From assembly GCA_021201235.1 (NCBI GenBank), contig JAJQFI010000024.1, forward strand, positions 330,657 to 388,777: DNA of 58,121 nucleotides, written 5' to 3'. Made by a program: the position numbers and the translations under genes. Of this stretch, positions 22,010 to 57,257 are shown one piece after another; within the stretch, counting starts at the first letter, position 1; each line of letters opens with the position of its first letter. The stretch comes from Oscillospiraceae bacterium. Lineage in GTDB: Bacteria > Bacillota > Clostridia > Oscillospirales > Ruminococcaceae. Below the pieces are notes generated by a model. It saw only the letters and a list, made by a program, of their open reading frames with translations. It was not told the DNA's origin and searched no databases.

Positions 22010-23443
22010 TTATTCGACTTCGATTTCTCCGCTGAACATTGCGTTCAACTCATCAACATAGTATGCGATTCTCTCGGAATAGGACTCCTTGAGCTGTGCC
22101 CATGTCGAAGGATTGTTGCCGAGGGTTCCGCCGATGAGGTTGTTGACAGCATCGGTAAGAGCCGACTGGCATCCGGAGGTGAAGTTTACGATCTGATAGT
22201 TGTTGACGAGCTCGTAGGTCTCATCGAGCATTTCGAGCATTTCGTCGGTCCACAAGTAGGTTTCCTTGAGCTGCTTGGTGTCGATGTCGATAACGGTCGG
22301 GTCGAGAACCTTGAATCTCTCGCAAGCTGCAAGAAGAACAACCGCCTCAGGGTTAGCTGCACCCTGGATGATGTGGTAGCCACAAGGCTGAGCCGCGAGG
22401 TAATAGTTGCCGTCGCCGTCGTCGTCACGAGGCATCGGGCAGAACATGACTTCTCCCTCGGTGATGTCGCCCCAGACAGCGCTGATGTTCTCAACGGTAT
22501 CGGTGAAGCCCCACTTCTCTACAGGATAGAAGAGTGTCAAGCCTTCCTTGACGCCTGCACCAACGGTGTTGGAGTTACGGCACTGATAGGAATTATTCCA
22601 TCTCGGGTATACGCAGTCGTTCTTGTTGAGGTCATAGATAAGAGCCTCAACCTCTTCGAGAAGAGGATTGTCGATGTCGGAGACGAATTCGCCATTCTCA
22701 AGAGCGATAACGGTTACGCCTGTCGAGTCGATAAGTGCCTGCTCCCAGTACCAACCGTCAAGAGCATATCTGTCCTCGTCGGGGTCGGAGAAGTCAACGC
22801 ACATCTCATAGAATACGTCCCAGGTCCACTCGTCGTTGTAGTAGAGCTCGGCGGGGTCGTCATAGCCCCACTCTTCCATAACTCTTCTGTTATAAGCGAT
22901 AACGGTGGTAGCCTTGATATCGGTTACAATAGCATAGTTCTGTCCACCGATTGAGAAGTAATCGGCGGCGAAATCTGCGGTGCCTGCCCAGAGAGCGTCG
23001 GTATAGTCGATATAGTCATCAACCGGTACGAAGATGCCCTTGATGCAGTAGTAAGGGAATGTGGTTACCGAGCATGTTGTGAAGTCGGGGGAGTTGGAAG
23101 CAAGGACGAGGTTAGCGAGGTCGTCGAAACGATTTTCGTATGTACACTCAATCCAATCTACTTCTCCGCCGTACTTGTTGACGAAGGTCCAATAACCGGT
23201 ATTGATGACTTCGTCCTCGGAATAGTTGTGGAAGTCGTCAGTCCACTTGTGGAACTTGATAGTTGTGTTGGCTCCTGCCACTGTCTCCGCATCGGGGAGC
23301 ATGATGCCCGCCGCCGCGAGAATTGCGGTTGAGTCCTCGGTCGAAAGTGTAAGCTGGACGATTTCGCGCTTGGAGCTTCCGCATCCAACCATAGCGACAA
23401 TCATCAGCGCAGCCATAGCGACCGCAATCAGTCTTTTTGCCAT
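22010..23443 (-). CDS. Extracellular solute-binding lipoprotein, sugar type (orphan)
   Basis: 477 residues, lipobox IVAMVGC, then a cluster-1 (MalE/UgpB-like) fold: FHKWTDDFHNYSEDEVINTG, LANLVLASNSPDFTTC, and GIFVPVDDYIDYTDALWAGT are the usual segments of the N-domain and hinge. The ligand is probably a carbohydrate (inference from family). No permease or ATPase is adjacent, so it must use transporter parts encoded elsewhere. Its promoter region carries a TGTGCA-N3-TGCACA palindrome also seen before the ABC operon at 56.9 kb. ATG at 23443 with AAAGGAAA upstream. Confidence 0.88.
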   Translation of the reverse strand: MAKRLIAVAMAALMIVAMVGCGSSKREIVQLTLSTEDSTAILAAAGIMLPDAETVAGANTTIKFHKWTDDFHNYSEDEVINTGYWTFVNKYGGEVDWIECTYENRFDDLANLVLASNSPDFTTCSVTTFPYYCIKGIFVPVDDYIDYTDALWAGTADFAADYFSIGGQNYAIVTDIKATTVIAYNRRVMEEWGYDDPAELYYNDEWTWDVFYEMCVDFSDPDEDRYALDGWYWEQALIDSTGVTVIALENGEFVSDIDNPLLEEVEALIYDLNKNDCVYPRWNNSYQCRNSNTVGAGVKEGLTLFYPVEKWGFTDTVENISAVWGDITEGEVMFCPMPRDDDGDGNYYLAAQPCGYHIIQGAANPEAVVLLAACERFKVLDPTVIDIDTKQLKETYLWTDEMLEMLDETYELVNNYQIVNFTSGCQSALTDAVNNLIGGTLGNNPSTWAQLKESYSERIAYYVDELNAMFSGEIEVE

Positions 23444-23545: not shown

Positions 23546-23572
23546 AATTCGCCGAAATTCCGCTGTTGAAAC

Positions 23573-23587
23573 TGTGCATCCTGCACA
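23573..23587. promoter_or_regulatory. TGTGCA-N3-TGCACA palindrome (candidate operator)
   Basis: TGTGCA, TCC, TGCACA: a perfect 6-bp inverted repeat with a 3-bp centre, about 60-75 bp upstream of the -10. The same palindrome with longer arms lies at 56960-56980. Confidence 0.5.
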
Positions 23588-23642
23588 AAGAAACGGATTT
23601 TCTCGGACGTTTCTTAAAACTGGCAGGTCAGATTATTGACCG

Positions 23643-42905: not shown

Positions 42906-42935
42906 TAGTATGTGCGCCAAATCGCAAAAAATTCC
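42906..42935 (-). promoter_or_regulatory. Candidate sigma-G promoter of spoVAC
   Basis: Minus strand CATACTA (42906-42912), 17-nt spacer, GGAATT (42930-42935). CATACTA is the consensus sigma-F/G -10; the -35 matches the G-x-A-T type partly. It overlaps the terminator of the ABC operon. Confidence 0.55.
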
Positions 42936-42960
42936 CCCACGGAATCCGTGAGGGAATTTT
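42928..42960 (-). terminator. Terminator of the ten-gene ABC operon
   Basis: AAATTCCC-CACGG arms with ATT loop (42928-42960), one mismatch, followed by a T-run on the minus strand. Nearly symmetrical, so it could work in both directions. Confidence 0.85.
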
Positions 42961-42970
42961 GATTCTGAAA

Positions 42971-44161
42971 TTATCCGACCAGACCGGAGCGTGCCAGACC
43001 TTCGGTGAAGTACTTCTGTAGGAAGATGTACATGACTAAGATCGGCGTGATTGACAGCAAGCATCCGGCTTCGAGCCACACAATCTTTCTTCGTGTACCA
43101 ACCTGTGCGTTGTTGAACAGCTGAGCATCGAGCGTTGCCGATAGCTTTTGCAGCTGTAGCGCGACCGTGTGGTTGTTGATGAAGAATGTGGACGAAACGT
43201 AGTAGTCGTTCCAGTACCAGACTATCGAGAAGAGGAATACTGTCAGGAATGCCGACGAAGCATTCGGAATCATTACTCGGATGAAGGTCTTGAACGGTCC
43301 GCAACCGTCGAGGTAAGCGGCGTCTTCGAGCTCCATCGGGAGTCCTCTGAAGAACTGTCTGAATATGTAGATGAACAGTCCGGAACGAATACCGTTTGCA
43401 AATATCGCCGGGACGTACATTACAATCTGGTGGTCGATGAGGGAGATATAGTGCGCTCCGTCCGACGCCGTGTTAATGGCGACTCCCAGGAACGTCGTTG
43501 CGCCGGCTCTAGCCGCCACCTCCACAAGTCCGAAGCACTTGAAGTATGCCCACTGGAGGTAGAGAGGGATAACGGTGATCTGTGCGGGAACGATAATCTG
43601 CATGATTACGATTCCGAACATGAGCGACTTTCCCTTGAAGTTGAATCTTGCGAAGCCATAGCCGACAAGACAACAGCTTACAACCGAGAGGAGCGAGCAG
43701 ACGAGGTTAAGTCTGATGGTGTTCAGGAGCGTATTTCCGAAGTCCATAACGTTCCATACATCCTGAAGGTTCGAGAGCGTGAACGACTTGGGAATCCAAA
43801 CGACTGACGGGTCGTTCATCTGAGCGCTCGGTCTGAAAGCGGTCGAGAGCATGTAGATGAGCGGATAGAGGATTACGAAGCAGAGTCCGAAGAGGATGAG
43901 GAATCTGGCTACAGGCCAAACCCATCCGAAAATCCTTCTGCGGCGGAGATACCACAGGTACTTCGGGTCGAGCTGACGTTCGTCGAGGGTGCCGTTCTTC
44001 TTGGCTTCCTTATAGGCTTTCTCTTTTTCCTTAAGGTGCTGTCTGCGCTCCTTCTGGAAGAGCTTTTCAGCCTTTTCGGTGCTCATTTCCTTTTTACGGC
44101 GAGGCTTCTTTTCCTTGACAGCCTTCTCCTTGACGACCTTTTCTTTCTTTTCTTTAGCCAC
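42971..44161 (-). CDS. Carbohydrate ABC transporter permease, MalG type, with K/E-rich N-terminal tail
   Basis: 396 residues. The first 65 residues are highly charged (AKEKKEKVVKEKAVKEKKPR and on), then six membrane helices with the binding-protein-dependent EAA loop EDAAYLDGCGPFKTFIRVMI. MalG-type permeases form one half of the sugar pore. GTG start at 44161, GGGGGG 7 nt upstream; a longer reading lacks a ribosome site. Last gene of the operon, 14 nt after its MalF partner. Ligand unknown. Confidence 0.9.
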   Translation of the reverse strand: MAKEKKEKVVKEKAVKEKKPRRKKEMSTEKAEKLFQKERRQHLKEKEKAYKEAKKNGTLDERQLDPKYLWYLRRRRIFGWVWPVARFLILFGLCFVILYPLIYMLSTAFRPSAQMNDPSVVWIPKSFTLSNLQDVWNVMDFGNTLLNTIRLNLVCSLLSVVSCCLVGYGFARFNFKGKSLMFGIVIMQIIVPAQITVIPLYLQWAYFKCFGLVEVAARAGATTFLGVAINTASDGAHYISLIDHQIVMYVPAIFANGIRSGLFIYIFRQFFRGLPMELEDAAYLDGCGPFKTFIRVMIPNASSAFLTVFLFSIVWYWNDYYVSSTFFINNHTVALQLQKLSATLDAQLFNNAQVGTRRKIVWLEAGCLLSITPILVMYIFLQKYFTEGLARSGLVG

Positions 44162-44175
44162 TGTGATTCCCCCCT

Positions 44176-45219
44176 TTATACTTCGTAGTAAATGTGCTTG
44201 TTGATGATACCGAGTACAATTCCCAGGACTACAATTACAATCAGGAAGTAAATCCATGCGAGTGCCGCAGAGTAGCCGTGGTTCCAGTCAGACGCTTCGG
44301 AAAGAACCAGCGTCATGACCTCGTTATCAGTAGCAACGAACGAGTCAACAATCGTATAAACAAGGTTTGTAACGATCATCGGGCTGATGTAAGGAAGAGT
44401 AATCTTCCAGAAGAACTCCCAAGCGGTTGCACCCTCGATGGATGCCGCCTCTCTTGCGGAAACGGGAATGTTCTGCAAGGCTGAGAGGAAGATGATAATC
44501 TGAATACCTGAGTTCCAGACGAGGTTGAATACATCTGATGTAATCAACGCTACCATCTCAGTAACCGTGTCACTTATGTTGTAAACTCCCAAGAACGTCA
44601 GAAGTTCACCCGCCATATCCGTCTCGAACATTGTCGAGAAGGCTTCGGAGCCGCCGGAATATCCGGAGGTGTCCATATCGCCGTTGATGATACTCATAAC
44701 CGGTCCGGTTGCAATGATAACCGGGAGGAAGAATACCGCACGAGCGAAGGTTCTTCCGTGGAACTTCTGGTTAAGAATAACTGCAACGAACAGTGAGAAT
44801 ATCAGGATAACCGGCGTTGACCAAAGTGTTTCACCAAGGACATTAATGAGCGCTGTCGTGTAATCGGTGTCGATTGTGAATGCGTCGATATAGTTCTGAA
44901 TTCCGACGAACGTGGTCTTCATGACGCCGACCGTTACCTCGGTCGTGTTGAAAGAGTACCAAAGCGACGTGATGAGCGGCTTTAAGAAGAGCCAGATGGA
45001 TCCCAAAATCCAGATGGCAAGGAACCCATAGCCATACAACGCTTTACGCCTCTCATAAGGGATTTTCATACCCTTCGCCTTTTTCTCTTTCGGAGGCTTG
45101 GCGGATTTCTTTGAAGCCTTTTCAGAAGCCTTATCGGCGGTTTCAACTACAGTCTCTTCAACTGCTTCGTTCACGGTCTCTGCTACCTCAGCGGCTTCAT
45201 TAACTACTGTATCAGCCAT
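44176..45219 (-). CDS. Carbohydrate ABC transporter permease, MalF/UgpA type
   Basis: 347 residues. N-terminal tail of about 50 Glu/Val/Lys-rich residues (NEAAEVAETVNEAVEETVVE), then six helices and the EAA loop EAASIEGATAWEFFWKITLP. First of the second permease pair. It overlaps the end of the DUF5696-like gene by eight bases. Confidence 0.9.
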   Translation of the reverse strand: MADTVVNEAAEVAETVNEAVEETVVETADKASEKASKKSAKPPKEKKAKGMKIPYERRKALYGYGFLAIWILGSIWLFLKPLITSLWYSFNTTEVTVGVMKTTFVGIQNYIDAFTIDTDYTTALINVLGETLWSTPVILIFSLFVAVILNQKFHGRTFARAVFFLPVIIATGPVMSIINGDMDTSGYSGGSEAFSTMFETDMAGELLTFLGVYNISDTVTEMVALITSDVFNLVWNSGIQIIIFLSALQNIPVSAREAASIEGATAWEFFWKITLPYISPMIVTNLVYTIVDSFVATDNEVMTLVLSEASDWNHGYSAALAWIYFLIVIVVLGIVLGIINKHIYYEV

Positions 45220-47788
45220 TCAATATCCCTCCTTCGTCAACATAGTCTGAATAGTTATAGGTTTTTCCGTTTGCCGTGATTTCGCCGGTCGAGAGATCTA
45301 CGGTCGTCACATAACCGTTTTCATAGGTTGTTGTGATGACATTGCCGTCAGTCTCGTATCCGGTGATGACAGAATCGGAAACAGGTGCTAAAATCTCACT
45401 TGCAAGCTCATACTCTGCGGCTGTCTGTTCGAGCCATCCTGCATAGTTTGCATAGTAGAGATTGATATAGTCGGTGTCTTCTATCTCGGTAGTCTCTTCA
45501 TAAATGAAGGTGTACTTGACATAAGAACCGGAAGCTATAGTCTTAAGGAAGAGTTCCATTGAATCCGCTGAGCCGTTGATAGCCTCGGTGGAGTAAGGAA
45601 TGTAGCCGTGGAGCACAATCTGTACGAACGGAACGTCCTCATCGAAGATCTTGAACTGACTCGACTGGAGCGTCAGGTTCTGGATAACGTCGACGTAGCT
45701 ATAGAGGTAAGCGTTCGGAGCGTCGGCGATGATGCTGTCAACAACTCCCGCAACCGACTTGTAGTATTCGACGATGTACTGTGCCGTAACCTCGCGGTTG
45801 GTGCGGTTCTTGTTGGAATAGTCGCCCCAGAGGGTGTTCGCATAAGAGCCGAGTCCCGCGCCGGGCAGGTCATACTTCGCAAGGTTCTTTGTGACCTTGG
45901 TGGAAAGCTTCGAGATTGATCTCGGCGAGAGAAGCGCCGAAGCAACTCCGTCGTTCGGTGTGCCATAGGCTATGTTGTACTCATAGGGTCTTGCGTAGGA
46001 CTTCGATACACGGTATGCCGTGTTGAAGAGTGTCCAGAAGCCGTTGCCATTTGAGGAGAAGGTGTAATCGGTAATCGAACCGTAGAACTGAGCTCCGATG
46101 CTCTCGCAGTACTCGATTAAGTCTTCAAGGTCGCTCTTGCCGCCAAGGACTGACGCAACACTGCCTGCGGTGTCAAGCTTTCCTGTCATCGAATCGGTCG
46201 TCCAGTCGTTGTAGTTTACGACGAGCTGGTCAACTCCGAGCTCTACGAGTTCTTCAAGAATCTCTGCCGCCTGATCGAAGGTAGTGAAGGCGGTCTTGAG
46301 GTTTACGGGGATACCGAGGATTGACTTCGACTTAAGCGTTCCGCCGTAGAACTCTACGAAGAGCGGAGCATAGTCGGATTCGGTCTTCTGGGTCAAGCCC
46401 TCCTCTTCGATGAGGTAGTCACGGTAAACGTCAGCAATCTCGGTAACGGTTACTTTCTCCTCTTCGGAGGTTACCCAGTAGTATCTGACTTCAAGAGTTT
46501 CAACCGCAATCGAACCGTCGCCCTTTTCAAACATGATGATTGAGCTTGAATCGCCCGACATGCTGTAGGTATCGGTGGAACGAAGGGTGAATGAGAAGTA
46601 GCAGTAGTTATATCCGCAGTTGTCGTCCGAGTTATAGGCGACTGCGGCGTTGACAGATGCGAACGTGTCACCTTCGGTGGCGACCATTACAAGACCGTCG
46701 CTTCCCTGAACCATAGCCATAACAGGCATTGTGACCTGCTCGACTTCGTCAGGCTGATTGTCCTTGACGTCTGCCGCGTCTCTTCCGTAAATGGTGGAGG
46801 AGTAGTTAGAATAGTTACCCTTGCCGTTGTTGAGGTTGATTATAGCACCCGAGCCATCAGCGACGAGCATATATCCTTCGGCTTCGCTGTCTGCGGCGCC
46901 GAAATAAGGGTTCATCGCAAGCGCTGTCAAGATGAGAACGTCGGAATCGGATTCCTGAGCATCCTCGCCGTCAACATATCCGGCTTTTTCCTTTATCTCG
47001 GATGTATTGATGTAGCATCTGAGATATGTGTCTTCGAGTATGTAGTAAACCGGAACAGTTGCCTTAGCACTCGAGAAGGTGTAGGTAACCTTGACGCCGT
47101 TGTCGATAAGCTCAAACTCGGTGTCTTCCTTGTCGGTCGACTGTCTGTAGGAATAGATGTAAGCCGAAATGATAAGGTCTGTTGCGTTGCCGTATCTGAC
47201 TGCGATGTTTGAAAGACGGTTTTCCTGGAGTGAGGACTTGGTGGTTGCGTCATCGAGCAAAGCATTAACGCAGTTTGACCACCATACCTTGCCGGAAGCC
47301 TTGACATAAACGCCGATTCTCTCGTAATCTCTGTCGAGATACATGATAGCTTCGTCGTTCTCGGCGACTACTTCACAACGGGCAATTTCTTCCTCGTCGG
47401 TGACGTACTCGACGGTCTCTTCTTCCTCTTCCTCTTCTTCAGAGTCAGAATCAGCATCAGCATCTTCGGATTCATCATCTTCGGTATCTGTGCCTTCGAC
47501 TAAATCTTCGGAGATTTCTTCGTCGGAAGAATCTTCGTTGGATGTTTCTGCTTCCGCTTCTTCATCCTCAGTCTCCTCGACTATTTCATCTTCCGACGCA
47601 TCGACTAATTCGTCCGTGACTTCAAGCTCTTCGAAGTCGTTCTCGGGCTCACTGCCATCGACGACCTCTTCACTTACTGCCGTTGCTTCTTCTTCCTCAT
47701 CCTCCGCAACCGCCGCGAAGACGGTCATGGACATGAGCATTGTGATTACAAGCAGTCCGGCGATTAATCTAAGAAATTTTTTCTTCAT
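45212..47788 (-). CDS. Large secreted DUF5696-like protein
   Basis: 858 residues. Signal peptide (LLVITMLMSMTVFAAVA) followed by about 100 acidic residues rich in Glu, Asp and Ser, a beta-rich domain (about 140-430), and a barrel-like C-terminal part (about 440-810) with LFVEFYGGTLKSKSILGIPV, VDQLVVNYNDWTTDSMTG and SIGAQFYGSITDYTF. The layout resembles a glycosidase-like barrel; DUF5696 is my family suggestion from memory. No lipobox or sortase motif. It follows the YIP1 gene by 21 nt. I can assign no catalytic residues. ATG at 47788 chosen since the GTG four codons earlier overlaps AGGTGAG. Confidence 0.75.
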   Translation of the reverse strand: MKKKFLRLIAGLLVITMLMSMTVFAAVAEDEEEEATAVSEEVVDGSEPENDFEELEVTDELVDASEDEIVEETEDEEAEAETSNEDSSDEEISEDLVEGTDTEDDESEDADADSDSEEEEEEEETVEYVTDEEEIARCEVVAENDEAIMYLDRDYERIGVYVKASGKVWWSNCVNALLDDATTKSSLQENRLSNIAVRYGNATDLIISAYIYSYRQSTDKEDTEFELIDNGVKVTYTFSSAKATVPVYYILEDTYLRCYINTSEIKEKAGYVDGEDAQESDSDVLILTALAMNPYFGAADSEAEGYMLVADGSGAIINLNNGKGNYSNYSSTIYGRDAADVKDNQPDEVEQVTMPVMAMVQGSDGLVMVATEGDTFASVNAAVAYNSDDNCGYNYCYFSFTLRSTDTYSMSGDSSSIIMFEKGDGSIAVETLEVRYYWVTSEEEKVTVTEIADVYRDYLIEEEGLTQKTESDYAPLFVEFYGGTLKSKSILGIPVNLKTAFTTFDQAAEILEELVELGVDQLVVNYNDWTTDSMTGKLDTAGSVASVLGGKSDLEDLIEYCESIGAQFYGSITDYTFSSNGNGFWTLFNTAYRVSKSYARPYEYNIAYGTPNDGVASALLSPRSISKLSTKVTKNLAKYDLPGAGLGSYANTLWGDYSNKNRTNREVTAQYIVEYYKSVAGVVDSIIADAPNAYLYSYVDVIQNLTLQSSQFKIFDEDVPFVQIVLHGYIPYSTEAINGSADSMELFLKTIASGSYVKYTFIYEETTEIEDTDYINLYYANYAGWLEQTAAEYELASEILAPVSDSVITGYETDGNVITTTYENGYVTTVDLSTGEITANGKTYNYSDYVDEGGILNG

Positions 47789-47809
47789 ATTTGCACTCAC
47801 CTTTCCGCT

Positions 47810-48445
47810 TTAACTTCTCACTCTATACATTATCTCAGTATAGATGGTGTAGAAGAAGACGTATACCTGCTGGAAGAGCGACAGGAGCAGTACGAACATG
47901 CAAAGGATAAGTACCATACCGACAACTGTCAGAGCTATACAGACGAATGTTTTTGTGTAGGAATACTGGTGGCACGCCTTCATGCCTGTTACTATCATAA
48001 TCGCAGTCCAGATGAGACCAACGTAGTAGATTGCACTCGACCAGATTGATTCATCAAGAGTGAGGGCGTAGGTCATAATCGTGGAGATAACCGTGCAGAC
48101 GATGTAGGGAACAAGTGCGTAAGCCGAATAGATTGCGATTCTGCGCATGTTGCCTTCGCCGTCAAGGAGCGTACAGAACGACCAGTTGGCTACTACCCAC
48201 GCCAGATAGATGATAACGCTCTGGGTGATAATCGGAACGATGTTGAATACGTCCGAATATGCCGCCATGTTGAATGCGAAACCGCCCATTCGCTCTTTGA
48301 CTACCTGAGCCACGAGGAGAAGGAACACGATAACTATTGTGATGGGCATGGAACCTTGCTTCTTCCATCTCATGTCCTCATAGCCTTCTATGGGGTGGAA
48401 AATGACGTACTTCAGCCACTGAATCGGCGTCATATCATAGACCAT
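47810..48445 (-). CDS. YIP1-family membrane protein
   Basis: 211 residues, five membrane segments (ITIVIVFLLLVAQVV, IITQSVIIYLAWVVANWSF, IAIYSAYALVPYIVCTVIST, YVGLIWTAIMIVTGMKACHQ, FVCIALTVVGMVLILCMFVL) in the Yip1 pattern, with TPIQWLKYVIFHPIEGYEDM at the N-terminus. Bacterial YIP1 proteins have no known biochemical role. ATG at 48445, 6 nt after GGGAGGAG, inside the end of the NHL/TPR gene (11-base overlap). It sits amid the sugar-transport genes. Confidence 0.85.
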   Translation of the reverse strand: MVYDMTPIQWLKYVIFHPIEGYEDMRWKKQGSMPITIVIVFLLLVAQVVKERMGGFAFNMAAYSDVFNIVPIITQSVIIYLAWVVANWSFCTLLDGEGNMRRIAIYSAYALVPYIVCTVISTIMTYALTLDESIWSSAIYYVGLIWTAIMIVTGMKACHQYSYTKTFVCIALTVVGMVLILCMFVLLLSLFQQVYVFFYTIYTEIMYRVRS

Positions 48446-50108
48446 TTACTGCTCCTCCCTTCTTGTTTTTTGTAAAGAGTCCTGCGATTTTATTCGCAAG
48501 TGTTTTGATTCCCTTTCCTATGAGTCGGAACAGTCTCCGCCAGAGGTGATCGGGAATCTTGCCGCGCTTCTGGAGCATGCTCACAACAATGTAGAGAACA
48601 ATCAGAACCGCAATTACTATAACTGCCGCAGTGAAGTTGTTTCTCATGAGGTCCTTACGATAATACTCGAACGCCTTGTCGTAGTCTTCATCGTCATAGC
48701 CTGCCTTGAAGTACTTCATAGCTTCCTCATACTCATCCTGGTTGAGGAGAGCCTTGCCTATTGCAACGTAAGCCATGTTGTAGTTACCGTCGTGCTTGAG
48801 GATTTCCTGCCAGAGCTCGAGGGATTCTTCGTAAAGTCCTTCGTTATACATCTCGGCGGCTTCGTGAACGTAGGTGCCGAAGAGTGTTTCCGAGAAGACG
48901 GTTATGTCGTTGTTACGACCATCAAGGATGTAAATCTTATCGCCATAGGACTCGATTGCGTTCGGGTTGTCAAATCCGCCGTTCTGGTCTTCCTGATCGC
49001 ATCCGAAGATGAACAGGAGGTTGAACTCACGGTCGTACTGAAAGATACGTCCCGAGGTGTAGTCGAGGATATTGACGATTCCGTTATCGCCGATTGAGAT
49101 ATCGGTCAGTCGGGTCGAATAGGTCGTGCCCGAGTAGGTTACCGACGTCTGGTCACCGAATACGATTTCGGCGCCGTTCTCGGTACGGGCGATGATGTTC
49201 TCGCCTGCCGGGTTCAGCTTCTTTACAGCGTCCGTAGTGGTGTTAGCCGCTTCGGTTACGGTGTAGATGAAGCCCTGATCGTCGATATCGAAGTTTGCAT
49301 ACTCAACAGGGGTTGCCTTGGTAAGTGTTGCGGACTGGGATTCGGTTGCAATCCTTCTCCACATCCTGTTGATTACGACCGTCGCCGTAACCTCAACCTT
49401 GTTCGCACCGAAGTAGCCGAGGAAGGTTCCGGATGCGGAGTACATGATAGCACCCTTGTTTACTGCGGGGCAGATAACGTAGACGTTCTTTGCCGCATCG
49501 ACGAGCACCTTTGCGCAGTAGAACGAAACCGAATCGTAAAGCTCGGAATCAGGTCTTGTGTACTCGGTGATGATTTCGCAATCCTGATTGCACTTGATGA
49601 CTCTCTGGTTATCTCTGTCGGCGATATACATGATGTCGTCTTCGTCGACGTAGATACCATAGGGGCTCTTGAGGGTGTTAGTCTCGGTGACTTCAACCGT
49701 GCCGTCTTCAAGGGTGGTCTCTGTTGTCATTGAGCTTCCTGTGAAGGTCTTGTAGCAAGCTAAGAGGTTGAATTCAAGGTCTGTCTTGATTATACGGTTG
49801 TTGTCGGTGTCAACTATGTACCATTCCTCGTTCTCGGAAAGGAAGAAGTCCTTGGCATTCGACAGAGTAGCCGGTTCATCTTCCGAGATGAAGAACTCGC
49901 TGTCGGGGTCGGAAAGCTGGTCGAGTCCGATGTCAGCACCGGTTATCGTGTCCGTGACCTGATAACCGTTCTGAGAGGGCACCGCCTCTTTCCACGCGTT
50001 GTAGTTATAGGATGTGTACGGGTCGTCGGCGAATGCCGTCACAGCCATCGTGACCGTGAGCATTGCCGCGAGCAGAATACACAACGCTTTTTTGATATTT
50101 AATGTCAC
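48435..50108 (-). CDS. Surface NHL-propeller/TPR protein with C-terminal membrane anchor
   Basis: 557 residues. Signal peptide ending AVTAFA; NHL-type beta-propeller repeats (about 80-400: EEWYIVDTDNNRIIKTDLEF, PYGIYVDEDDIMYIADRDNQ, GIVNILDYTSGRIFQYDREF, KIYILDGRNNDITVFS); two TPR units (about 410-475, MYNEGLYEESLELWQEILKH and GKALLNQDEYEEAMKYFKAG); one membrane helix (AVIVIAVLIVLYIVV); and a basic cytosolic tail. The propeller and TPRs face out. A scaffold or sensor role is inferred. GTG start with AGGTGAT upstream. Confidence 0.83.
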   Translation of the reverse strand: MTLNIKKALCILLAAMLTVTMAVTAFADDPYTSYNYNAWKEAVPSQNGYQVTDTITGADIGLDQLSDPDSEFFISEDEPATLSNAKDFFLSENEEWYIVDTDNNRIIKTDLEFNLLACYKTFTGSSMTTETTLEDGTVEVTETNTLKSPYGIYVDEDDIMYIADRDNQRVIKCNQDCEIITEYTRPDSELYDSVSFYCAKVLVDAAKNVYVICPAVNKGAIMYSASGTFLGYFGANKVEVTATVVINRMWRRIATESQSATLTKATPVEYANFDIDDQGFIYTVTEAANTTTDAVKKLNPAGENIIARTENGAEIVFGDQTSVTYSGTTYSTRLTDISIGDNGIVNILDYTSGRIFQYDREFNLLFIFGCDQEDQNGGFDNPNAIESYGDKIYILDGRNNDITVFSETLFGTYVHEAAEMYNEGLYEESLELWQEILKHDGNYNMAYVAIGKALLNQDEYEEAMKYFKAGYDDEDYDKAFEYYRKDLMRNNFTAAVIVIAVLIVLYIVVSMLQKRGKIPDHLWRRLFRLIGKGIKTLANKIAGLFTKNKKGGAVNGL

Positions 50109-50170
50109 AGCTTATCACCTGTCTCCTTTTCTATAGTAGTCATAGGTTTGCCATAGGCTTGCCCATAGGC

Positions 50171-51136
50171 TTAATCCTTCATACCTGAGCTCGCCATGGT
50201 TTCCATAACGTTGCTCTGTGCTACAAGGAAGATGATAAGCGGAGGGAGCATGAGCACTACCGCCGAAGCGTAGATGATGCCCTGACGCGAGATACCTGAA
50301 GCCGCCAACTGGTTCATGATTGTCGGGAGAGTCTTTAACTGCTCCTCGTAAACGAGTGAACCGCCCTGGATGTTCCATGCACTCTGGAATACATAGATGA
50401 TAAGGGTTGCGATTGCGGGCTTCTGGTTCGGGACGATTACCTGCCAGCAGATGCGGAAGTGTCCCGCACCGTCAACCTTGGCGGCGTCGATGATCGAGTC
50501 GTTGATGGTCGACATACTCTGACGCATGAGGTAAAGACCCATTGATGTTGCGATGTTCGGGAGAATCAATGCCCAGTAGGTATTGATGAGCCCCAATGCC
50601 GCGATGACTATGTACTGCATAATCCAAGTCGCTGTCGAGGAGAAGAGAAGTGCATTAACAACGATTGAGTTGAGAGCACCGTAACCGGGGAATTTGCACT
50701 TCGAAAGTGCATATGCCGCACAGCAGACAACCAAGACGTGGATTATTGAGATAACAACCGTGATGAAGACGGAGTTGAAAACATATCTCGAGAACGGAAC
50801 CCAGAGGTTACCGGCAACCTTGAAGAGGTTTGAGAAGTTCTCCATCGTCGGGTTGAGTACATAAAGTCTCGGCGGGAATATGAAGAGCTCACTGATAGGC
50901 TTCAAAGACTGGATAATTGAGTAGTAAAGCGGGAATATCATGAACAATCCGAGGAGTGCAAGTAAGATGAAGATTACTATGTCTCCGCCGAGGGAGCCGT
51001 TGATGTGCTTGCCCTTTGACTTCTTGACGTGGACGGTCTCGATTTTTATCTTCGACTGTCTCTTTCTGAGCTTCGCTAACTCTTTTTCCTGCTTTTTCGC
51101 GAGCTTTTCTTGATTTTCTCTGATATCAGATGCCAT
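50171..51136 (-). CDS. Carbohydrate ABC transporter permease, MalG type
   Basis: 321 residues. Lys/Glu-rich coiled N-terminus (ENQEKLAKKQEKELAKLRKR), six helices, EAA loop IDAAKVDGAGHFRICWQVIV. Partner of the MalF-type permease at 51151. It follows that gene by 14 nt. Together they form the first permease pair of the operon. Confidence 0.9.
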   Translation of the reverse strand: MASDIRENQEKLAKKQEKELAKLRKRQSKIKIETVHVKKSKGKHINGSLGGDIVIFILLALLGLFMIFPLYYSIIQSLKPISELFIFPPRLYVLNPTMENFSNLFKVAGNLWVPFSRYVFNSVFITVVISIIHVLVVCCAAYALSKCKFPGYGALNSIVVNALLFSSTATWIMQYIVIAALGLINTYWALILPNIATSMGLYLMRQSMSTINDSIIDAAKVDGAGHFRICWQVIVPNQKPAIATLIIYVFQSAWNIQGGSLVYEEQLKTLPTIMNQLAASGISRQGIIYASAVVLMLPPLIIFLVAQSNVMETMASSGMKD

Positions 51137-51150
51137 ACATTTCCACCCCC

Positions 51151-52104
51151 TTAATCATCGGTATACCGGCTCAGAATCTTGCGTATGAAGTAATTTACTA
51201 TGAGCATCGCCGCGAAGAGCACCAAGCATATCGCACTTGAATAGCCCATCTCGTAACGAATCGTACCATAGTCCTGAGCGTGGTTCATAACTGTGTGAAC
51301 TGCGTAGTCGGTCGAAGGGAGTCCGCAGAGCGTTGAACCTACGGTACCGCAGGTGAACGCACCGGAAATTGCCAGAACCGCCGCGAACAGAAGCGAGGGT
51401 CCCATCGCGGGAATCGTGATGGTGAAGAGCTCCTGGAATCTGTTCTGAATGCCTTCGATTGCGCCCGCTTCATAGAGCGAGTTGTCGATATTCTGGAAGC
51501 CGGCTCGGAGGGCAAGGAAGCCTGCACCCATTGACGACCAGAGCTGGACGACGATTACAACCCCCATCATATAGCTCGTGTCCGTCAGCCATTGTATGGC
51601 GTTGTTGATAATTCCCAAGTCCATGAGAACCGAGTTAAGGTATCCATAGGAGTCACCTGAGAAGATGAGCTGCCAGATAACGTATGCCGACGGCGTCATT
51701 GACGGGGCGTAGAATACGAATGTGAAGAATACCTTGAAGAACGGGTTCATTTCGTTGATGAGCCATGCAAGAAGGAAGCTCAGAACGTAGGAGAACGGAC
51801 CAGTGAATACTGCGAATATGAGTGTATTCCTGATAGCTGTCATGAATACATCATCATTTACAAACAGCGAGTAGAAGTTCTGGAGTCCGACGTACCTTGG
51901 TGCCTGTACGAGGTTGAAGTTCGTAAGACCCAGAGGAAGCGTCATGATAACCGGAACCAATGTAAAGATGGTAAACAGCAGGAAGAACGGAAGCAACATC
52001 AGGTACACGGTTTTATTCTGCTTGATGAGATGCCATGTATAGGCGGCTTTGCTCTTTGTGTTTATCGGCTTGACGGCTGTTTGCTCTTTTTTAGCCTTTG
52101 CCAT
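51151..52104 (-). CDS. Carbohydrate ABC transporter permease, MalF type
   Basis: 317 residues, short Lys-rich N-terminus, six helices, EAA loop YEAGAIEGIQNRFQELFTIT. It lies directly after the large solute-binding protein, the standard order for a sugar importer, which supports that protein as its partner. Confidence 0.91.
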   Translation of the reverse strand: MAKAKKEQTAVKPINTKSKAAYTWHLIKQNKTVYLMLLPFFLLFTIFTLVPVIMTLPLGLTNFNLVQAPRYVGLQNFYSLFVNDDVFMTAIRNTLIFAVFTGPFSYVLSFLLAWLINEMNPFFKVFFTFVFYAPSMTPSAYVIWQLIFSGDSYGYLNSVLMDLGIINNAIQWLTDTSYMMGVVIVVQLWSSMGAGFLALRAGFQNIDNSLYEAGAIEGIQNRFQELFTITIPAMGPSLLFAAVLAISGAFTCGTVGSTLCGLPSTDYAVHTVMNHAQDYGTIRYEMGYSSAICLVLFAAMLIVNYFIRKILSRYTDD

Positions 52105-52121
52105 GAAACTTACCCCCTCCT

Positions 52122-55085
52122 TTATTCAAGTGTCGAGATGTCAATTCCCAACTCTTCATACTTTCTCGTGATTTCATCGTTGATATCTCTGTTGTACCAG
52201 AGCAACGTGTCTCTCGGGTTAGCGTAGTTGTTGACGACTTCTCTGAATGCGTTGGTTATGTTACGGGTAACGATGTATGTTGCCGGGATAAGGCTAATCT
52301 CGGTTGTGTAATTCATCTGCTCGAGAATCAGCTCATACTCTGACTTCGACCATGAGAGCTGTGTCAGAGCTTCCTGGTTTGCGGTGTCGAAACGTCCGAG
52401 AGGACCCAAGAGGGCTTCGAGTGAACGTCCGTACTGAGCCTGAATGTCGGCTTCGGTGAACCACTTGATGAGCTCCCAGGCGTCTTCCCTCTGTTCGTCG
52501 GAGAGCTTCGAGAAGATTACGGCGCCGGTTGTTGTCGAAGTGGTTGCGTGGTTGACAGTTCCGTCTTCCTGAACGGTTCCGGGTACCAGAGCGAAGTCCC
52601 AAAGACCTCTGATTTCGGGTGCCGCAGTGTAAACCTGATTGTAGAAGGTGTAGCCGGTGATGATTATCGGATACTCACCTGTACGGAATCTTGAGAACTG
52701 GTCGAAGGTCTGCTCGAAGGAGTAGAGAGTATAGAACTCTGTCCACATTTCGAAGCACTCAACCGCCGTGATATCGTCGAATATTGTTGCGGTCTTGGAA
52801 GTGTTGTAGTAATCCATGCCGTTCTGAACCATGAACGTTGCATATGCGTCGAAGTTGAAGCCGACGTTCATATAGCTACGCTGGATAGTCGGGAGCATGT
52901 CGATAAGTTCGTCCCATGTCTCCGGCGGCTCGTCGAATCCGAACGATTCGAGTACGTCGGTTCTATAGAACGTCATCGAGAAGGTCTGTGAAATCGGGAG
53001 TCCGAAGACCTCGTCGCCATATGTATACAGCGTCATGATGTTGTCGGAGAATCTTTCGATTACCTCCTCGTAATCGTCAAACTGTGAAACGTCCACGAGA
53101 CAGTCACGGATGGCGAGCTGGAGCGGCAGGTCGCCGCTTACGAAGAATGCGACGTCAGGTCCCTTTCCTGCAAGCGTTGCCTCAATGATACCGCCCTGAA
53201 CAAGGCTTACATTTACTGCAATGCCGGTTTCCTCAATGAAGTAGGAGTCGATAAGTTCCTTGACGATCTGAGCCTGGTCACGTCCGAGGGAAACCCAGAC
53301 CTCAAGGGCGTCTTCGCCGCCGTCGGAAAGGTTGTTATAGTCTTCGAAGAAGGAAGCTATGAACTGATCCCAGCTGAACTGGAGCGACTTGAAGAAGCTT
53401 TCATCGGTGGATGTGAACTCTATGTCGGCTGAGGTGATTTCGATGAAGTCAACCTCGAGATACTGACTGCGGTAGTCGGTCATCCACTGAGAAAGTGCGG
53501 TGACGTCGTCCTTGAACTGACTGAGCTTTGCGGGGATGTCATCAGGACGTGAAATCATCTTGTCAAGGAGCTGAGCCATTGTTTCGAGTGAAACGGCTTC
53601 TGTTCCGGAGGTTCCCGCGATTTCCTCAATCTTAGCCTTCAGAGCTCTGAGCTCGTCGGCATAGGTCTGGAAATCATCGAGCAAATCGGGAATCTGCTTG
53701 TGAACCATATAGTCGGTGTACTCATCGGGGTCGGAGCCCGTAATCATGAGTATCTGTCTGTAGTAGCTGTTGAGCTCATAGACGAGGTCATCGAGCTCAC
53801 GCATAATTTCGCCGATGTCGCCCGGGACAGCTTCGAGGGTGATGGTGTGCTCGCCCGCTTCAAGATAGAAGTAAAGGGTGTTGCCGTCTTCGTCTGTCGG
53901 AGTTGTAACCGACCAGCTGTTGGAGTAGTAGAACTTGACAGCCTCAGCCTCTTCGCAAGGAATTTCGCCGTCTATATAAATAGTACGGTTGGAGAAGAGT
54001 CCTCTCATTTCATCCTGAATGGCACGGATGCCAATCTTGACCCAGCCGGCTTCCTCCATTGTGAACGTCCATGTAACGCTCATTCCGGAATCCTTCCAGG
54101 TCTCCGAGCCGATGGTGTTGTAAACCTGCTTGGAAGAAGCGGCGGGAGAAGTGAGGTATGTAGAACGGTCCTGAGTAGGATAAATGGTGATGTCCGAGGT
54201 GCTTGTGCAATCTTCACCTTCAAGAAGGATGTAGATGCCGGTTGACTCGGAAGCTACGGATTCGTCGGTGGTAACGGTGTCAACCTCGGTGAGGGAAGCC
54301 GCATCCTCTTCATTGCAAATCTTGAGATAAGCGATTGCGAATCTTGCCTTGTCCGAGTCGATTGTTATTGTGTGCTCGCCTTCGGTGAAGTAGAACTCGA
54401 GCGGGTCGTTATAAAGACCGTCGGTGTCTTCAAAGAAGGTTGTCTGCCATGCGAGGGACTCCTCGAGGGTAGGTCTTACCTGGTTGCCGCTGATATCTGT
54501 TCTGAAGCTGCGGTTACCATCCTCGTCATACTCATAGGAGCTCTCGGAGATAGCCCAGACCTTGCTCAAAAGAATTCTCTCTGCGGTCGAGTAGGGAAGC
54601 TCGCCGTCGATATAGATAGCAAGCTCGATGTCGTTGGCGGTGCTTGCAAGAGCATAATACATAATCTCTATGTTATAGATGCCCGCTTCCTCGACGGTAA
54701 ACGTATACTCAACATACGCTTCCTCTTCCGGGAGAACCAGAGCCTCGACACCGTCGATTGTATCTACATACGCCTCGGTCTCATCGCTGACGTAGGAGTA
54801 GTCGGCGCCGGCGATTTCAATCTCGTCGTCCGGTCTCGGGTCGTCTGCGTGGTTGTCATAGTATGTCGAGTAGCTGTTGGCTCTCGAAGCATCATCAATG
54901 GCTTGTGCGGATGTTTCGGCGACGGAGGTCGTAGATGAAGACGATGCTTCCTCTTCGGAAGTGTCGCTGTCCGCATAAACCGTGCCGACAAACGGCACCA
55001 TCATCGCAAGCGCAAGCACGAGCGACAACGAACGCATAAACAGTCTATTCCCGAACTTATTGTCCCCGAACAGTTTGTTTTTCAC
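52122..55085 (-). CDS. Giant extracellular solute-binding protein with two lectin-like modules
   Basis: 987 residues. Signal peptide with an AxA-like site (GTVYA-DSD) and no lipobox cysteine. Two similar beta-sandwich modules (about 60-250, FTVEEAGIYNIEIMYYALAS; about 255-430, TFTMEEAGWVKIGIRAIQDE), both with a YIDGE-P motif and an EGEHTITI/AGEHTITL strand, as in carbohydrate-binding domains. A helical stretch (430-560), then a cluster-1 solute-binding domain (about 590-987, GKGPDVAFFVSGDLPLQLAI). Normal members are about 400-550 residues. GTG start at 55085 after AAAGGTGG. Ligand likely a glycan (inference). Confidence 0.87.
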   Translation of the reverse strand: MKNKLFGDNKFGNRLFMRSLSLVLALAMMVPFVGTVYADSDTSEEEASSSSTTSVAETSAQAIDDASRANSYSTYYDNHADDPRPDDEIEIAGADYSYVSDETEAYVDTIDGVEALVLPEEEAYVEYTFTVEEAGIYNIEIMYYALASTANDIELAIYIDGELPYSTAERILLSKVWAISESSYEYDEDGNRSFRTDISGNQVRPTLEESLAWQTTFFEDTDGLYNDPLEFYFTEGEHTITIDSDKARFAIAYLKICNEEDAASLTEVDTVTTDESVASESTGIYILLEGEDCTSTSDITIYPTQDRSTYLTSPAASSKQVYNTIGSETWKDSGMSVTWTFTMEEAGWVKIGIRAIQDEMRGLFSNRTIYIDGEIPCEEAEAVKFYYSNSWSVTTPTDEDGNTLYFYLEAGEHTITLEAVPGDIGEIMRELDDLVYELNSYYRQILMITGSDPDEYTDYMVHKQIPDLLDDFQTYADELRALKAKIEEIAGTSGTEAVSLETMAQLLDKMISRPDDIPAKLSQFKDDVTALSQWMTDYRSQYLEVDFIEITSADIEFTSTDESFFKSLQFSWDQFIASFFEDYNNLSDGGEDALEVWVSLGRDQAQIVKELIDSYFIEETGIAVNVSLVQGGIIEATLAGKGPDVAFFVSGDLPLQLAIRDCLVDVSQFDDYEEVIERFSDNIMTLYTYGDEVFGLPISQTFSMTFYRTDVLESFGFDEPPETWDELIDMLPTIQRSYMNVGFNFDAYATFMVQNGMDYYNTSKTATIFDDITAVECFEMWTEFYTLYSFEQTFDQFSRFRTGEYPIIITGYTFYNQVYTAAPEIRGLWDFALVPGTVQEDGTVNHATTSTTTGAVIFSKLSDEQREDAWELIKWFTEADIQAQYGRSLEALLGPLGRFDTANQEALTQLSWSKSEYELILEQMNYTTEISLIPATYIVTRNITNAFREVVNNYANPRDTLLWYNRDINDEITRKYEELGIDISTLE

Positions 55086-55178
55086 TGTGGTATCCACCTT
55101 TCTTCTAAATTGCTCCGACCGGTTCGCGTACAGTTTTCGGTCAGATGCTTCTATTCTTCCTTACAGGTTATAAAAAGT

Positions 55179-56261
55179 TTATTCCGCCTTGCGAATATAG
55201 ATTCGCTCGGCATCCTTGTCAAGGTCAGCCTTGACTCGGTCACCGCCCTTCATTCCGAGCTCTTCGAGATACTCCTTCGGAAGCTGGAGTCTTCCCGTGC
55301 GGTCGAGGACCACAAGCTCTTCGGAAACGAAGTCCGGTTCGCCCTCAGTCACCGATTTCGTGAGCGCTTCGTCCATATCTTCAAGACTCTGCGATTCTTT
55401 CATGATTTCGGCATGCGACTTTTTGATTATTTCACTGGACGTTCTGCCGTCCCTTATTGCTATTACTCTGTCTATCTGTTTTGCAAGCCGCATGTCGTGG
55501 GTTACGATTACAATCGTAATTCCCCTCGTGCGGTTCAGGTCCTTGAAGACCTGCAAGAGCTGATCGGAGGTCTTTGTATCGACCGACCCCGTCGGCTCGT
55601 CGGCAAGAAGAATCTGCGGGTTATTTGCGAGTGATATCGCAATCGCGACTCTCTGCTGTTCGCCGCCCGACATCTGGTCAAGCCTCGAATTCACTCTGTG
55701 GGAAAGTCCCACGGCATCAAGGAGCTCCAGGGCTCTCTCGCGTCTTTGCTTCTGCCCCTGAAGGAGCATCGGAAGCTCGACGTTCTGCTCCGCCGTTAAG
55801 TACGGAACGAGGTTTCTTGCGTTGTTCTGCCAGACAAACCCGACCATGTTGCGCTTATAGAGCATGTAGTCCTCTTCGGTGAACTTGAGAAGGTTTCTGC
55901 CGTTCACGTTGAGAGACCCCGCCGACGGTTTGTCAAGTCCGCCGAGCATATTGAGGAGCGTCGATTTTCCGGAGCCGGAGCTTCCTACTATCGCAACAAG
56001 CTCACCGCGCTTCACCTTCAGATCAAGTCCCTGCAACGCAACAACCTCAATCTGATCTGTCTTGTAAATCTTGACGAGGTTTTCGCATTCGATTGCGTAC
56101 TCCGTGGTGGGAGCCGTTATCTCCTGCTCGTGGTCAAGTATGCGCTGTTTCTTCTTGGATAACTTTTTTTCTTTCGGCTGTTTTTCTTTGGGCTCTTTTT
56201 GCTTCTTTTCTTTTGGTTTCTTTTCTTCGTCCGGAACGGCGTCTCTTATTTCATCAGTCAA
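55179..56261 (-). CDS. LolD/MacB-type ABC ATPase with charged N-tail and SpoVT/AbrB-like C-terminal domain
   Basis: About 360 residues. Tail (about 5-45, EEKKPKEKKQKEPKEKQPKE); ATPase domain (about 55-280) with Walker A GSSGSGKST, signature MSGGEQQRVAIAIS, Walker B ILLADEPT and the LolD-style TGSVDTKTSDQLL. The last 45 residues (VVLDRTGRLQLPKEYLEELG, then MKGGDRVKADLDKD) match the swapped-hairpin SpoVT/AbrB pattern. No ATG fits; TTG at 56261 is preferred (GTG at 56270 possible), overlapping the upstream gene by eight bases. No TOBE domain, unlike MsmX/UgpC. No permease of the FtsX type is in the operon. Confidence 0.85.
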   Translation of the reverse strand: MTDEIRDAVPDEEKKPKEKKQKEPKEKQPKEKKLSKKKQRILDHEQEITAPTTEYAIECENLVKIYKTDQIEVVALQGLDLKVKRGELVAIVGSSGSGKSTLLNMLGGLDKPSAGSLNVNGRNLLKFTEEDYMLYKRNMVGFVWQNNARNLVPYLTAEQNVELPMLLQGQKQRRERALELLDAVGLSHRVNSRLDQMSGGEQQRVAIAISLANNPQILLADEPTGSVDTKTSDQLLQVFKDLNRTRGITIVIVTHDMRLAKQIDRVIAIRDGRTSSEIIKKSHAEIMKESQSLEDMDEALTKSVTEGEPDFVSEELVVLDRTGRLQLPKEYLEELGMKGGDRVKADLDKDAERIYIRKAE

Positions 56262-56931
56262 TAATCTCACCGTCCTCCAAAGTGTAAACCCTGTCGGCAA
56301 TCTCCAGCAGGCTCGGGTCATGGGTCGTCATGACTATGGTCATCTTTTCTGTGATTACAAGCCTCTTGAAAAGCTCGACGATGTGGTGACTGGTCGCCGT
56401 GTCAAGCTCGGCTGTCGGCTCGTCGGCAAAGATTATTCTCGGCTCGTGAGCCAGAGCTCTCGCTATTGCGACTCTCTGCTGTTCGCCTCCGGAAAGCTCG
56501 CCGGGGCGATGGTTCATTCTCTTGGCAAGACCGACCTCCTCAAGACACTTCTTAACTCGCTCGTCGCGCTGTGCAAACGGAAACTTCGAAAGCCGAAGAC
56601 CGAAATCGACGTTTTCGTATGCCGTCATCGAGGACATCAGCGCCACCGACTGGAAGACAAACGCCATCTTGTAGCGCCTCAGCTCATCTCTTTTACTGTC
56701 CGACAGCTTTGTGATGTCGGTCCCGTCGAAGAAGACCTCGCCCGAAGTGGGTCTGTCAAGAGCGCCCAAGAGGTTTATGAGAGTTGTCTTTCCGGAGCCG
56801 GAGCGACCCTTCAGAATGGTAAGTCCGCCCTCGTTCACCGTTATGTTGATGTCATGAAGCGCGTGAACAACGCTTCCGTCGCCAATCTGAAAATCTCTGC
56901 TCAGACCGTGTGTTGCTATGATTGTTTCCAT
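56254..56931 (-). CDS. LolD/MacB-type ABC ATPase
   Basis: 225 residues from METIIATHGLSRDFQIGDGS. Walker A GRSGSGKTT, signature LSGGEQQRVAIARAL, Walker B IIFADEPT, H-loop TTHDPSLLEIADRV, and a Q-loop FVFQSVALMSSMTAYENV: all intact. It is the first gene of the operon, and its ATG (56931) follows GGAGGA. The paired ATPases could act as a heterodimer. The LolD/MacB group usually serves FtsX-type permeases, not MalFG. Confidence 0.92.
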   Translation of the reverse strand: METIIATHGLSRDFQIGDGSVVHALHDINITVNEGGLTILKGRSGSGKTTLINLLGALDRPTSGEVFFDGTDITKLSDSKRDELRRYKMAFVFQSVALMSSMTAYENVDFGLRLSKFPFAQRDERVKKCLEEVGLAKRMNHRPGELSGGEQQRVAIARALAHEPRIIFADEPTAELDTATSHHIVELFKRLVITEKMTIVMTTHDPSLLEIADRVYTLEDGEIID

Positions 56932-56959: not shown

Positions 56960-56980
56960 ATTTGTGCATGTTGCACAAAT
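56960..56980. promoter_or_regulatory. Perfect palindrome upstream of the ABC operon
   Basis: ATTTGTGCA, TGT, TGCACAAAT: 9-bp arms with a 3-bp centre, 29 nt before the first ATPase start and inside the leader. The core equals the TGTGCA-N3-TGCACA element at 23573-23587. It could be a DNA operator or an mRNA hairpin near the ribosome site. Confidence 0.6.
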
Positions 56981-57228: not shown

Positions 57229-57257
57229 ATTATATCAAAGAAGAGACCGCTTGTCAA
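57229..57257 (-). promoter_or_regulatory. Consensus sigma-A promoter of the ten-gene ABC operon
   Basis: TTGACA (57252-57257), 17-nt spacer, TATAAT (57229-57234) on the minus strand, all twelve consensus bases. The start is near 57222. Confidence 0.9.

Follow-up and report, generated by a model that had tools for sequence, protein, structure and literature searches.

Which transporter owns the two ATPases that open a sugar-importer operon? The question is raised by a 58,121-nucleotide stretch of an Oscillospiraceae bacterium (family Ruminococcaceae; GenBank assembly GCA_021201235.1, contig JAJQFI010000024.1, positions 330,657 to 388,777), hereafter the window, whose minus strand carries ten same-strand genes at 42971-56931. 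Read 5' to 3' these are ATP1, ATP2, SBP, F1, G1, NHL/TPR, YIP1, DUF5696, F2 and G2. Domain searches returned the parts list that a first-pass annotation had drawn up from the letters alone: two ATP-binding cassette (ABC) ATPases, a solute-binding protein (SBP) with an SBP_bac_8 domain, four BPD_transp_1 permeases, and NHL, Yip1 and DUF5696 proteins. That annotation regarded the ten genes as a single glycan-import system. Its import theme was supported and the operon layout proved to be conserved; the ATPases, however, were found to follow another transporter, and the unit extends beyond ten genes in many relatives. We propose that the operon is probably an eight-gene importer cassette of the CUT1 type joined to the displaced ATPases of a MacA/FtsX-type transporter.

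Conservation and extent of the gene order

Sixty loci were fetched and their genes labelled with profiles grown from the window proteins. Named genomes were surveyed by a two-pattern scan across genomes of 84,980 species, which gave 498 stretches with DUF5696 relatives; the best 80, mostly metagenome-assembled genomes of Ruminococcus, Oscillospiraceae or Clostridia, were kept. DUF5696 was matched in 33 of 41 relatives (in G009 and G039 only partially). Among 398 genomes sampled from the phylum, 46 had a match, which exceeded the family cut-off in 39. All 22 fetched loci of the window's genus keep the ten genes in order, with the reading frames of G1 and G2 broken in one of them; so do 62 of the 80 best named loci out of the 498. 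In a further 12 of the 80, two of which begin at a contig edge, only the SBP-to-G2 part (eight genes) is seen; the other six are cut by contig ends, and none of the 80 shows another order. All ten genes occur in Ruminococcus bicirculans 80/3, R. albus KH2T6 and Ruminococcus sp. YE71, and the eight in R. callidus ATCC 27760. The order is far beyond chance and is not peculiar to this genome, the outcome that the annotation had named as arguing against one system; a chance or genome-specific array was rejected on these counts.

Outside the family, 37 loci from 29 genomes were compared. The eight-gene order was present in 24 of them (six with NHL and YIP1 fused, one with YIP1 split), three were rearranged, and ten held a partial cassette, seven with only NHL-DUF5696-F2-G2 and three with other parts. 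ATP1 and ATP2 headed the cassette in none of the 37, some of which are cut before the head. Judged by domain content and order, SBP, F1-G1, NHL/TPR, YIP1, DUF5696 and F2-G2 are a sugar-importer cassette that is also found in other orders. Two independent importers on one transcript, SBP-F1-G1 on the one hand and F2-G2 with a separate binding protein and NHL/YIP1/DUF5696 on the other, would fit the seven reduced loci, two loci in which the same block precedes SBP-F1-G1, the SBP_bac_1 matches of 23 among 95 neighbours picked by hand from the 212 listed at 38 loci outside the genus, and a separate SBP in the window's clade that carries the same palindrome as the operon (see below). We regard this arrangement as somewhat unlikely, given that the eight-gene order is very stable, with NHL, YIP1 and DUF5696 held between the permease pairs, and that the window operon has a single binding protein. 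The same placement upholds the earlier claim that the non-transport genes are integral to the unit.

In many relatives the ten genes are not the whole unit. A GH26 gene follows G2, directly or after BioY, in 17 of the 22 fetched genus loci, and is followed by an HlyD/MacA-like adaptor lipoprotein and then by a permease of about 935 residues with two FtsX stretches. Among the 29 closest named loci (at least 52% identity), 18 run from ATP1 through FtsX, with GH26, adaptor and FtsX directly following the ten genes; two are cut inside or after GH26, and the nine of the window's clade have no tail at that place. GH26 was found in 25 of 25 genus genomes, though it is not always the tail's own. In the window's clade the tail lies 41-45 kb from the cassette instead of behind G2: GH26 with a CBM35-like domain (148..1746, minus strand) adjoins BioY (1748..2338, minus strand), and the adaptor and FtsX stand just left of the window (locus L140), about 44-45 kb from G2. 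Because the genes between cassette and displaced tail include those for ribosomal protein L4 and SecD/SecF, a rearrangement appears the better explanation than an inserted element. A KilA-N domain gene is located between GH26 and the adaptor in the window genome (L140:11873-12742).

The ATPase pair and the FtsX transporter

ATP1 (56254..56931, minus strand; 225 residues, ABC motifs seen by eye) and ATP2 (55179..56261, minus strand; start inferred) are LolD/MacB-like ABC ATPases. The annotation had called them 'LolD-type', and LolD is indeed the best model for both; their scores of 210.7 and 228.5 bits nevertheless lie under the LolD equivalog cut-off of 307.75 bits. In the PDB, ATP1 matched MJ0796, LolD and MacB chains, while ATP2 matched an oligopeptide-type chain first and LolD next. 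A weak MazE/AbrB-like C-terminal tail is present in the window ATP2 and in three of five FtsX-adjacent ATP2 proteins scanned, all below cut-off.

The distribution of the pair carries our proposal. Orthologs of FtsX were detected in 25 of 25 genus genomes, in two of the 16 other genomes of the relatives set, and in 18 of 100 family genomes, two of which are genus members. Orthologs of ATP1 with at least 81% identity are present in 24 of the 25 genus genomes, and two genomes of the order that have FtsX carry ATP1, at 58-60% identity, directly beside it. Three groups were then compared outside the genus, with DUF5696 sought in all 16 FtsX-positive and 24 of the 82 FtsX-negative family genomes, together with G039, G030 and G009. 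Where FtsX occurs without full DUF5696 (eight genomes), seven have ATP1 directly 3' of FtsX; six of these run adaptor-FtsX-ATP1-ATP2, and the contig of the seventh ends after ATP1. Where FtsX and the cassette occur together (ten genomes), ATP1/ATP2 head the cassette in nine, including G504, in which only a cut ATP2 is seen at the contig start; in the tenth, G470, the sequence breaks off before the cassette head. In nine of these ten FtsX lies on a contig other than the cassette's, and neither ATPase gene is beside it where the sequence continues; in G498 adaptor and FtsX follow G2 on the same contig. Where the cassette occurs without FtsX (six genomes), the pair is found in none of the five with a visible upstream region (G436 is represented by one of its four cassettes). 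As the presence of the pair tracks FtsX across all three groups, the pair appears to belong with FtsX and not with the sugar permeases, and ATP1 and ATP2 are probably not the importer's motor. G009 was considered as a genome that keeps FtsX and has lost both cassette and ATP1; its contig stops 46 bp past the cassette-flank match, where the cassette would begin, and the case was set aside as an assembly gap.

In a tree of 30 concatenated ATP1+ATP2 rows, all 24 cassette-head rows fall on one side of one branch (support 70/76), a pattern compatible with one relocation. We envisage, as a model, that ATP1 and ATP2 would be the two ATPases of a type VII-like transporter of the MacA/FtsX kind, and that in Ruminococcaceae their genes were transferred, probably in a single event, from a place next to FtsX to the front of the importer operon. 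The resemblance to the known type VII-like systems MacAB, LolCDE and YbbAP lies in the LolD/MacB-like ATPases set beside a MacA-like adaptor and FtsX, contiguous in the six cassette-free genomes (plus the one whose contig ends after ATP1). In contrast to those systems, the ATPase genes here stand apart from adaptor-FtsX, at the front of an operon for a sugar importer, and two distinct ATPases accompany one double-FtsX chain. Three cassette-free FtsX operons (L168, L181 and L182) have three MacA-like adaptor open reading frames (ORFs) in a row before FtsX.

The importer, its motor and its companion proteins

If ATP1 and ATP2 do not drive the permeases, another ATPase should. The four permeases, all on the minus strand, are F1 (51151..52104) and G1 (50171..51136; BPD_transp_1 just at cut-off) of pair 1, and F2 (44176..45219) and G2 (42971..44161; start inferred, the longest ORF reaching 44257) of pair 2. 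An EAA-like loop was seen by eye in all four, and their best NCBIfam models are UgpA/UgpE/GlcU-like, all below cut-offs. A sugar-type SBP with paired BPD_transp_1 permeases is the arrangement of a CUT1 importer. No MalK-type ATPase with C-terminal OB/TOBE domains is encoded within the operon; an orphan copy is found elsewhere in the genome. ATPases of the OB_MalK type are present in 38 of the 41 relatives, and every one of the 25 genus genomes has at least one; each of the seven order genomes whose cassette is complete has exactly one such MalK/MsmX-type ATPase, and 20 of 22 family genomes have one or more, the two without being 75% and 78% complete. Of the three in the window genome, the first lies beside permeases and an SBP and the second beside permeases; the third, the orphan, has no permease nearby. 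The orphan matched 7x0q_A (567 bits) and MsmX (6yir, 451 bits) and so resembles MsmX overall; OB_MalK and TOBE domains were found in its copy in the genus genome G024, and in three other genus genomes and G375 the ATPase of this kind adjoins an S4-like gene (by eye). An ORF labelled MsmX-like lies downstream in one of the 37 outside-family loci, and another with an MsmX label was noted in G470, 3.3 kb past FtsX. We consider a shared MsmX-type ATPase the likelier motor of the importer, and the orphan may drive both permease pairs.

The cassette may be compared with CUT1 importers that share MsmX, such as AraNPQ-MsmX of Bacillus subtilis. It likewise has an SBP and BPD_transp_1 permeases with EAA-like loops, ATP1/ATP2 are absent from its loci as far as seen outside the family, and the orphan MalK/MsmX-type ATPase is encoded elsewhere. 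It differs in having two permease pairs, a 991-residue SBP and the NHL/YIP1/DUF5696 block between the pairs, and in the two LolD-like ATPases that head it in many Ruminococcaceae.

That ATP1 and ATP2 are instead the motors of the two permease pairs, the ten genes then being a self-contained importer with unusual LolD-type ATPases, would explain why the pair opens the operon and retains that position in 62 of the best 80 named loci, and agrees with the EAA-like loops and with the separation of FtsX from the cassette's contig in nine of the ten family genomes outside the genus that have both. We consider it very unlikely, since the pair is missing from all five visible cassettes without FtsX, is seen at none of the 37 loci outside the family (some cut before the head), sits with FtsX in cassette-free genomes, and coexists with a MalK/MsmX-type ATPase in every one of the 25 genus genomes. 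On the same grounds the annotation's placing of LolD-type ATPases at the core of the importer is not supported.

Several observations nonetheless count against our proposal of a displaced pair and a shared motor. In G503 (78% complete), which carries FtsX but lacks DUF5696, the 2.2 kb that follow FtsX contain no ATPase. The contigs of G483 and G498 end at FtsX, hiding what comes next, and the branch support of 70 for a single relocation is modest. The group comparison takes genomes as counted, ignoring kinship, and draws on 24 of the 82 FtsX-negative family genomes. G483 (75% complete) has the cassette and no MalK-type match. Finally, a passage of PMC7658222 states that residues D77, R104, E110 and K154 matter in MsmX; the orphan ATPase keeps two of the four, with Gln at positions 110 and 154 (by eye).

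The remaining cassette proteins are also encoded on the minus strand. The SBP (52122..55097; 991 residues) is predicted to comprise N-terminal beta-rich regions, a helical middle and a C-terminal sugar-binding-protein fold. Its SBP_bac_8 match is confined to the last 40% of the chain, its N-terminal part gave no Pfam match at E values up to 0.1, and a fold search with the whole model returned binding-protein chains aligned over about 400 columns, which leave the N-terminal part uncovered. The NHL/TPR membrane protein (48435..50108) has an NHL domain and TPR matches below cut-offs, and is followed by a YIP1-family membrane protein (47810..48445; Yip1, 59.5 bits); in 16 fetched loci NHL and YIP1 are a single fused protein, which ties the two together. 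The DUF5696 protein (45212..47800; 493.5 bits) appears to be secreted, and its predicted fold, a beta-sandwich with a TIM barrel, is GH129-like over about 560 residues.

The likeness of DUF5696 to the GH129-like enzymes NagBb and DagB (5wzn, 5opq) is one of predicted fold; identity is 12-14%, the barrel has no universally kept carboxylate, and the gene sits with transport genes. An active GH129-like exo-glycosidase, trimming the glycan at the surface once it is captured, would suit this fold, but it is unlikely, because no acid of the barrel is conserved across all 158 sequences aligned: in 37 sequences outside the family D660 is present in 81% and E756 in 97%, the latter being Ala in the window protein. 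Eight sequence matches of DUF5696 in the PDB, mostly to PPR repeats over 26 residues, were judged spurious, and a search against a viral fold library gave none at E <= 0.001. Two further observations concern the family's spread: six DUF5696 loci with differing neighbours (L086-L091) occur in G034, whose genome of 1.8 Mb belongs to the same order, and the genus has a second, shorter DUF5696-like family of about 640-660 residues that matches only profile positions of about 195-400 (in G001, G002, G006, G009, G014 and G020).

Taken together in our model, the large surface SBP, with its extra N-terminal regions, would capture a glycan fragment and pass it to permease pair 1, pair 2 or both, powered by the MalK/MsmX-type ATPase encoded elsewhere; the NHL/TPR-YIP1 membrane unit and the GH129-like DUF5696 could serve as sensor, scaffold or glycan-holding parts. 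The handing-on of the glycan and a functional reason for the capture of the ATPases are what we infer beyond the comparisons above.

Expression signals, substrate and significance

The operon layout was examined at the level of junctions and signals. With start codons for ATP2 (TTG at 56261; frame and ribosome-binding site read from the sequence) and G2 (GTG near 44161) of our own choosing, the nine junctions are an overlap of 8 nt, gaps of 81, 17, 14 and 62 nt, an overlap of 11 nt, a gap of 9 nt, an overlap of 8 nt and a gap of 14 nt. Seven of nine, counting the two inferred starts, therefore overlap or lie within 25 nt, in line with the annotation. The single promoter and terminator that it saw bracketing the genes were also recovered. 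A pattern scan found a σ70-type promoter, TTGACA-N17-TATAAT, with a 12/12 match and TG before the −10 element (57229..57257, minus strand), which is kept in ten of ten sequences (the window and nine close loci). A simple pattern scan missed any terminator 3' of G2; folding revealed an intrinsic terminator (42925..42960, minus strand), AAAATTCCCTCACGGATTCCGTGGGGGAATTTTTTG at about 42960-42925, with a 12-13 bp hairpin and a U run in a 129-nt stretch of z = −3.96. These features support one operon layout. The next gene downstream of G2 is SpoVAC; upstream of the operon are a tRNA and 5S rRNA, and the contig ends where the window ends. A leader riboswitch was rejected, as no Rfam family matched at gathering score and only two weak chance matches appeared at E < 1. 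The leader at 57150-56950, from promoter to ATP1, contains strongly conserved blocks in ten close sequences, for example CTCTGAAAACGGATTTCGGGTTTTGTCCGCCA, none matching Rfam at gathering score. Near the operon, at 39359-40822 of the window, lies a gene for a Schlafen/AlbA_2 protein with a RecG-like C-terminal domain.

Thirty nucleotides before the ATP1 start is a palindrome, TTGTGCANNNTGCACAA (56962..56978), a candidate operator that forms the core of a 21-nt inverted repeat at 56960-56980. The core is exact near the ATP1 start in 18 of the 22 fetched genus loci, and with at most one mismatch it was found in all 26 genus genomes searched. The window genome has 11 sites versus none for a reversed control pattern, which was matched once in each of three of the 26 genomes. 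Across the own genome and three near relatives, some sites precede an FGGY kinase, EF-G, free SBPs and CBM9 proteins, and the others examined fall inside long ORFs or beside unassigned genes. One site, at 23572-23588 with one mismatch, is upstream of a separate 477-residue SBP (22010..23443, minus strand), a possible second binding protein for the cassette. The palindrome thus apparently marks a small sugar regulon in the window's clade. Its position about 250 nt after the predicted promoter makes either a second promoter or a roadblock conceivable. In the wider family, 14 of the 34 ATP1 loci from named genomes have it within 700 nt (at most one mismatch). Eight-gene loci rarely have it upstream (one of nine), and it stands before SBP in one of 20 further loci without ATP1/ATP2. 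At the adaptor, a site within 700 nt was seen in one of nine genus loci and in none of the 15 rows from the family or order, which represent 14 distinct loci (in one of them a site lies 1.6 kb off); this is a further point against our reading. Given this near absence, co-regulation of the separated halves is not supported.

It is a distinct possibility, if short of an even one, that the capture of ATP1/ATP2 was a matter of transcriptional convenience, the FtsX transporter and the importer sharing an operon and not a function. The lack of a nearby candidate operator at the separated adaptor-FtsX loci fits this explanation, as does BioY, likewise interspersed between G2 and GH26 in some relatives. 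Against it stands the retention of the ATPase placement across many genera of the family; in addition, R. bicirculans, G498 and 18 of the 29 closest named loci have adaptor-FtsX as the last genes of the run.

With regard to substrate, a plant glycan, perhaps beta-mannan, is suggested. The adjacent GH26 favours beta-mannan in the window's genus. A passage of PMC13278490 reports growth of R. bicirculans 80/3 on beta-mannans, and its locus has all ten genes with adaptor and FtsX; this is weak support for mannan, because no GH26 is adjacent and R. bicirculans has other mannan genes. GH26 stands beside the cassette in the genus, whereas R. bicirculans and most of the wider family lack it at that place; neighbours outside the genus include small numbers of varied glycoside hydrolases, among them GH26, 31, 42, 10, 3, 5 and 106. 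Mannan is accordingly not a general substrate, and the cassette probably serves glycan uptake in general. Mannan use with an ABC importer is likewise reported for the beta-mannan loci of the gut Bacillota Roseburia intestinalis and Faecalibacterium prausnitzii (PMC6385246, PMC8262883). Four ABC operons of R. albus 7 are induced on cellulose according to a passage of PMC4300822.

As far as literature searches reach, the ten-gene unit appears undescribed: 498 stretches with DUF5696 relatives were found and the order is very stable in the best 80, yet the word DUF5696 is in none of the 5.39 million papers searched. Two matters could be tested on this locus: how an ABC importer works with two permease pairs and a single large binding protein, and how ATPase genes pass from the operon of one transporter to that of another. 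The two transport machines may cooperate on plant fibre. In the boldest form of this idea, which we think improbable, a type VII engine (ATP1/ATP2, double FtsX and MacA-like adaptor) would work with the dual-permease CUT1 importer, NHL-YIP1 and a catalytically altered, GH129-fold glycan holder, its mechanical work loading or releasing a surface glycan apparatus that feeds the importer; if true, this would be a new kind of envelope machine. Since the carriers include the cultured gut bacteria R. bicirculans, R. albus and R. callidus, this aspect of plant-fibre uptake in humans and ruminants is open to direct probing.

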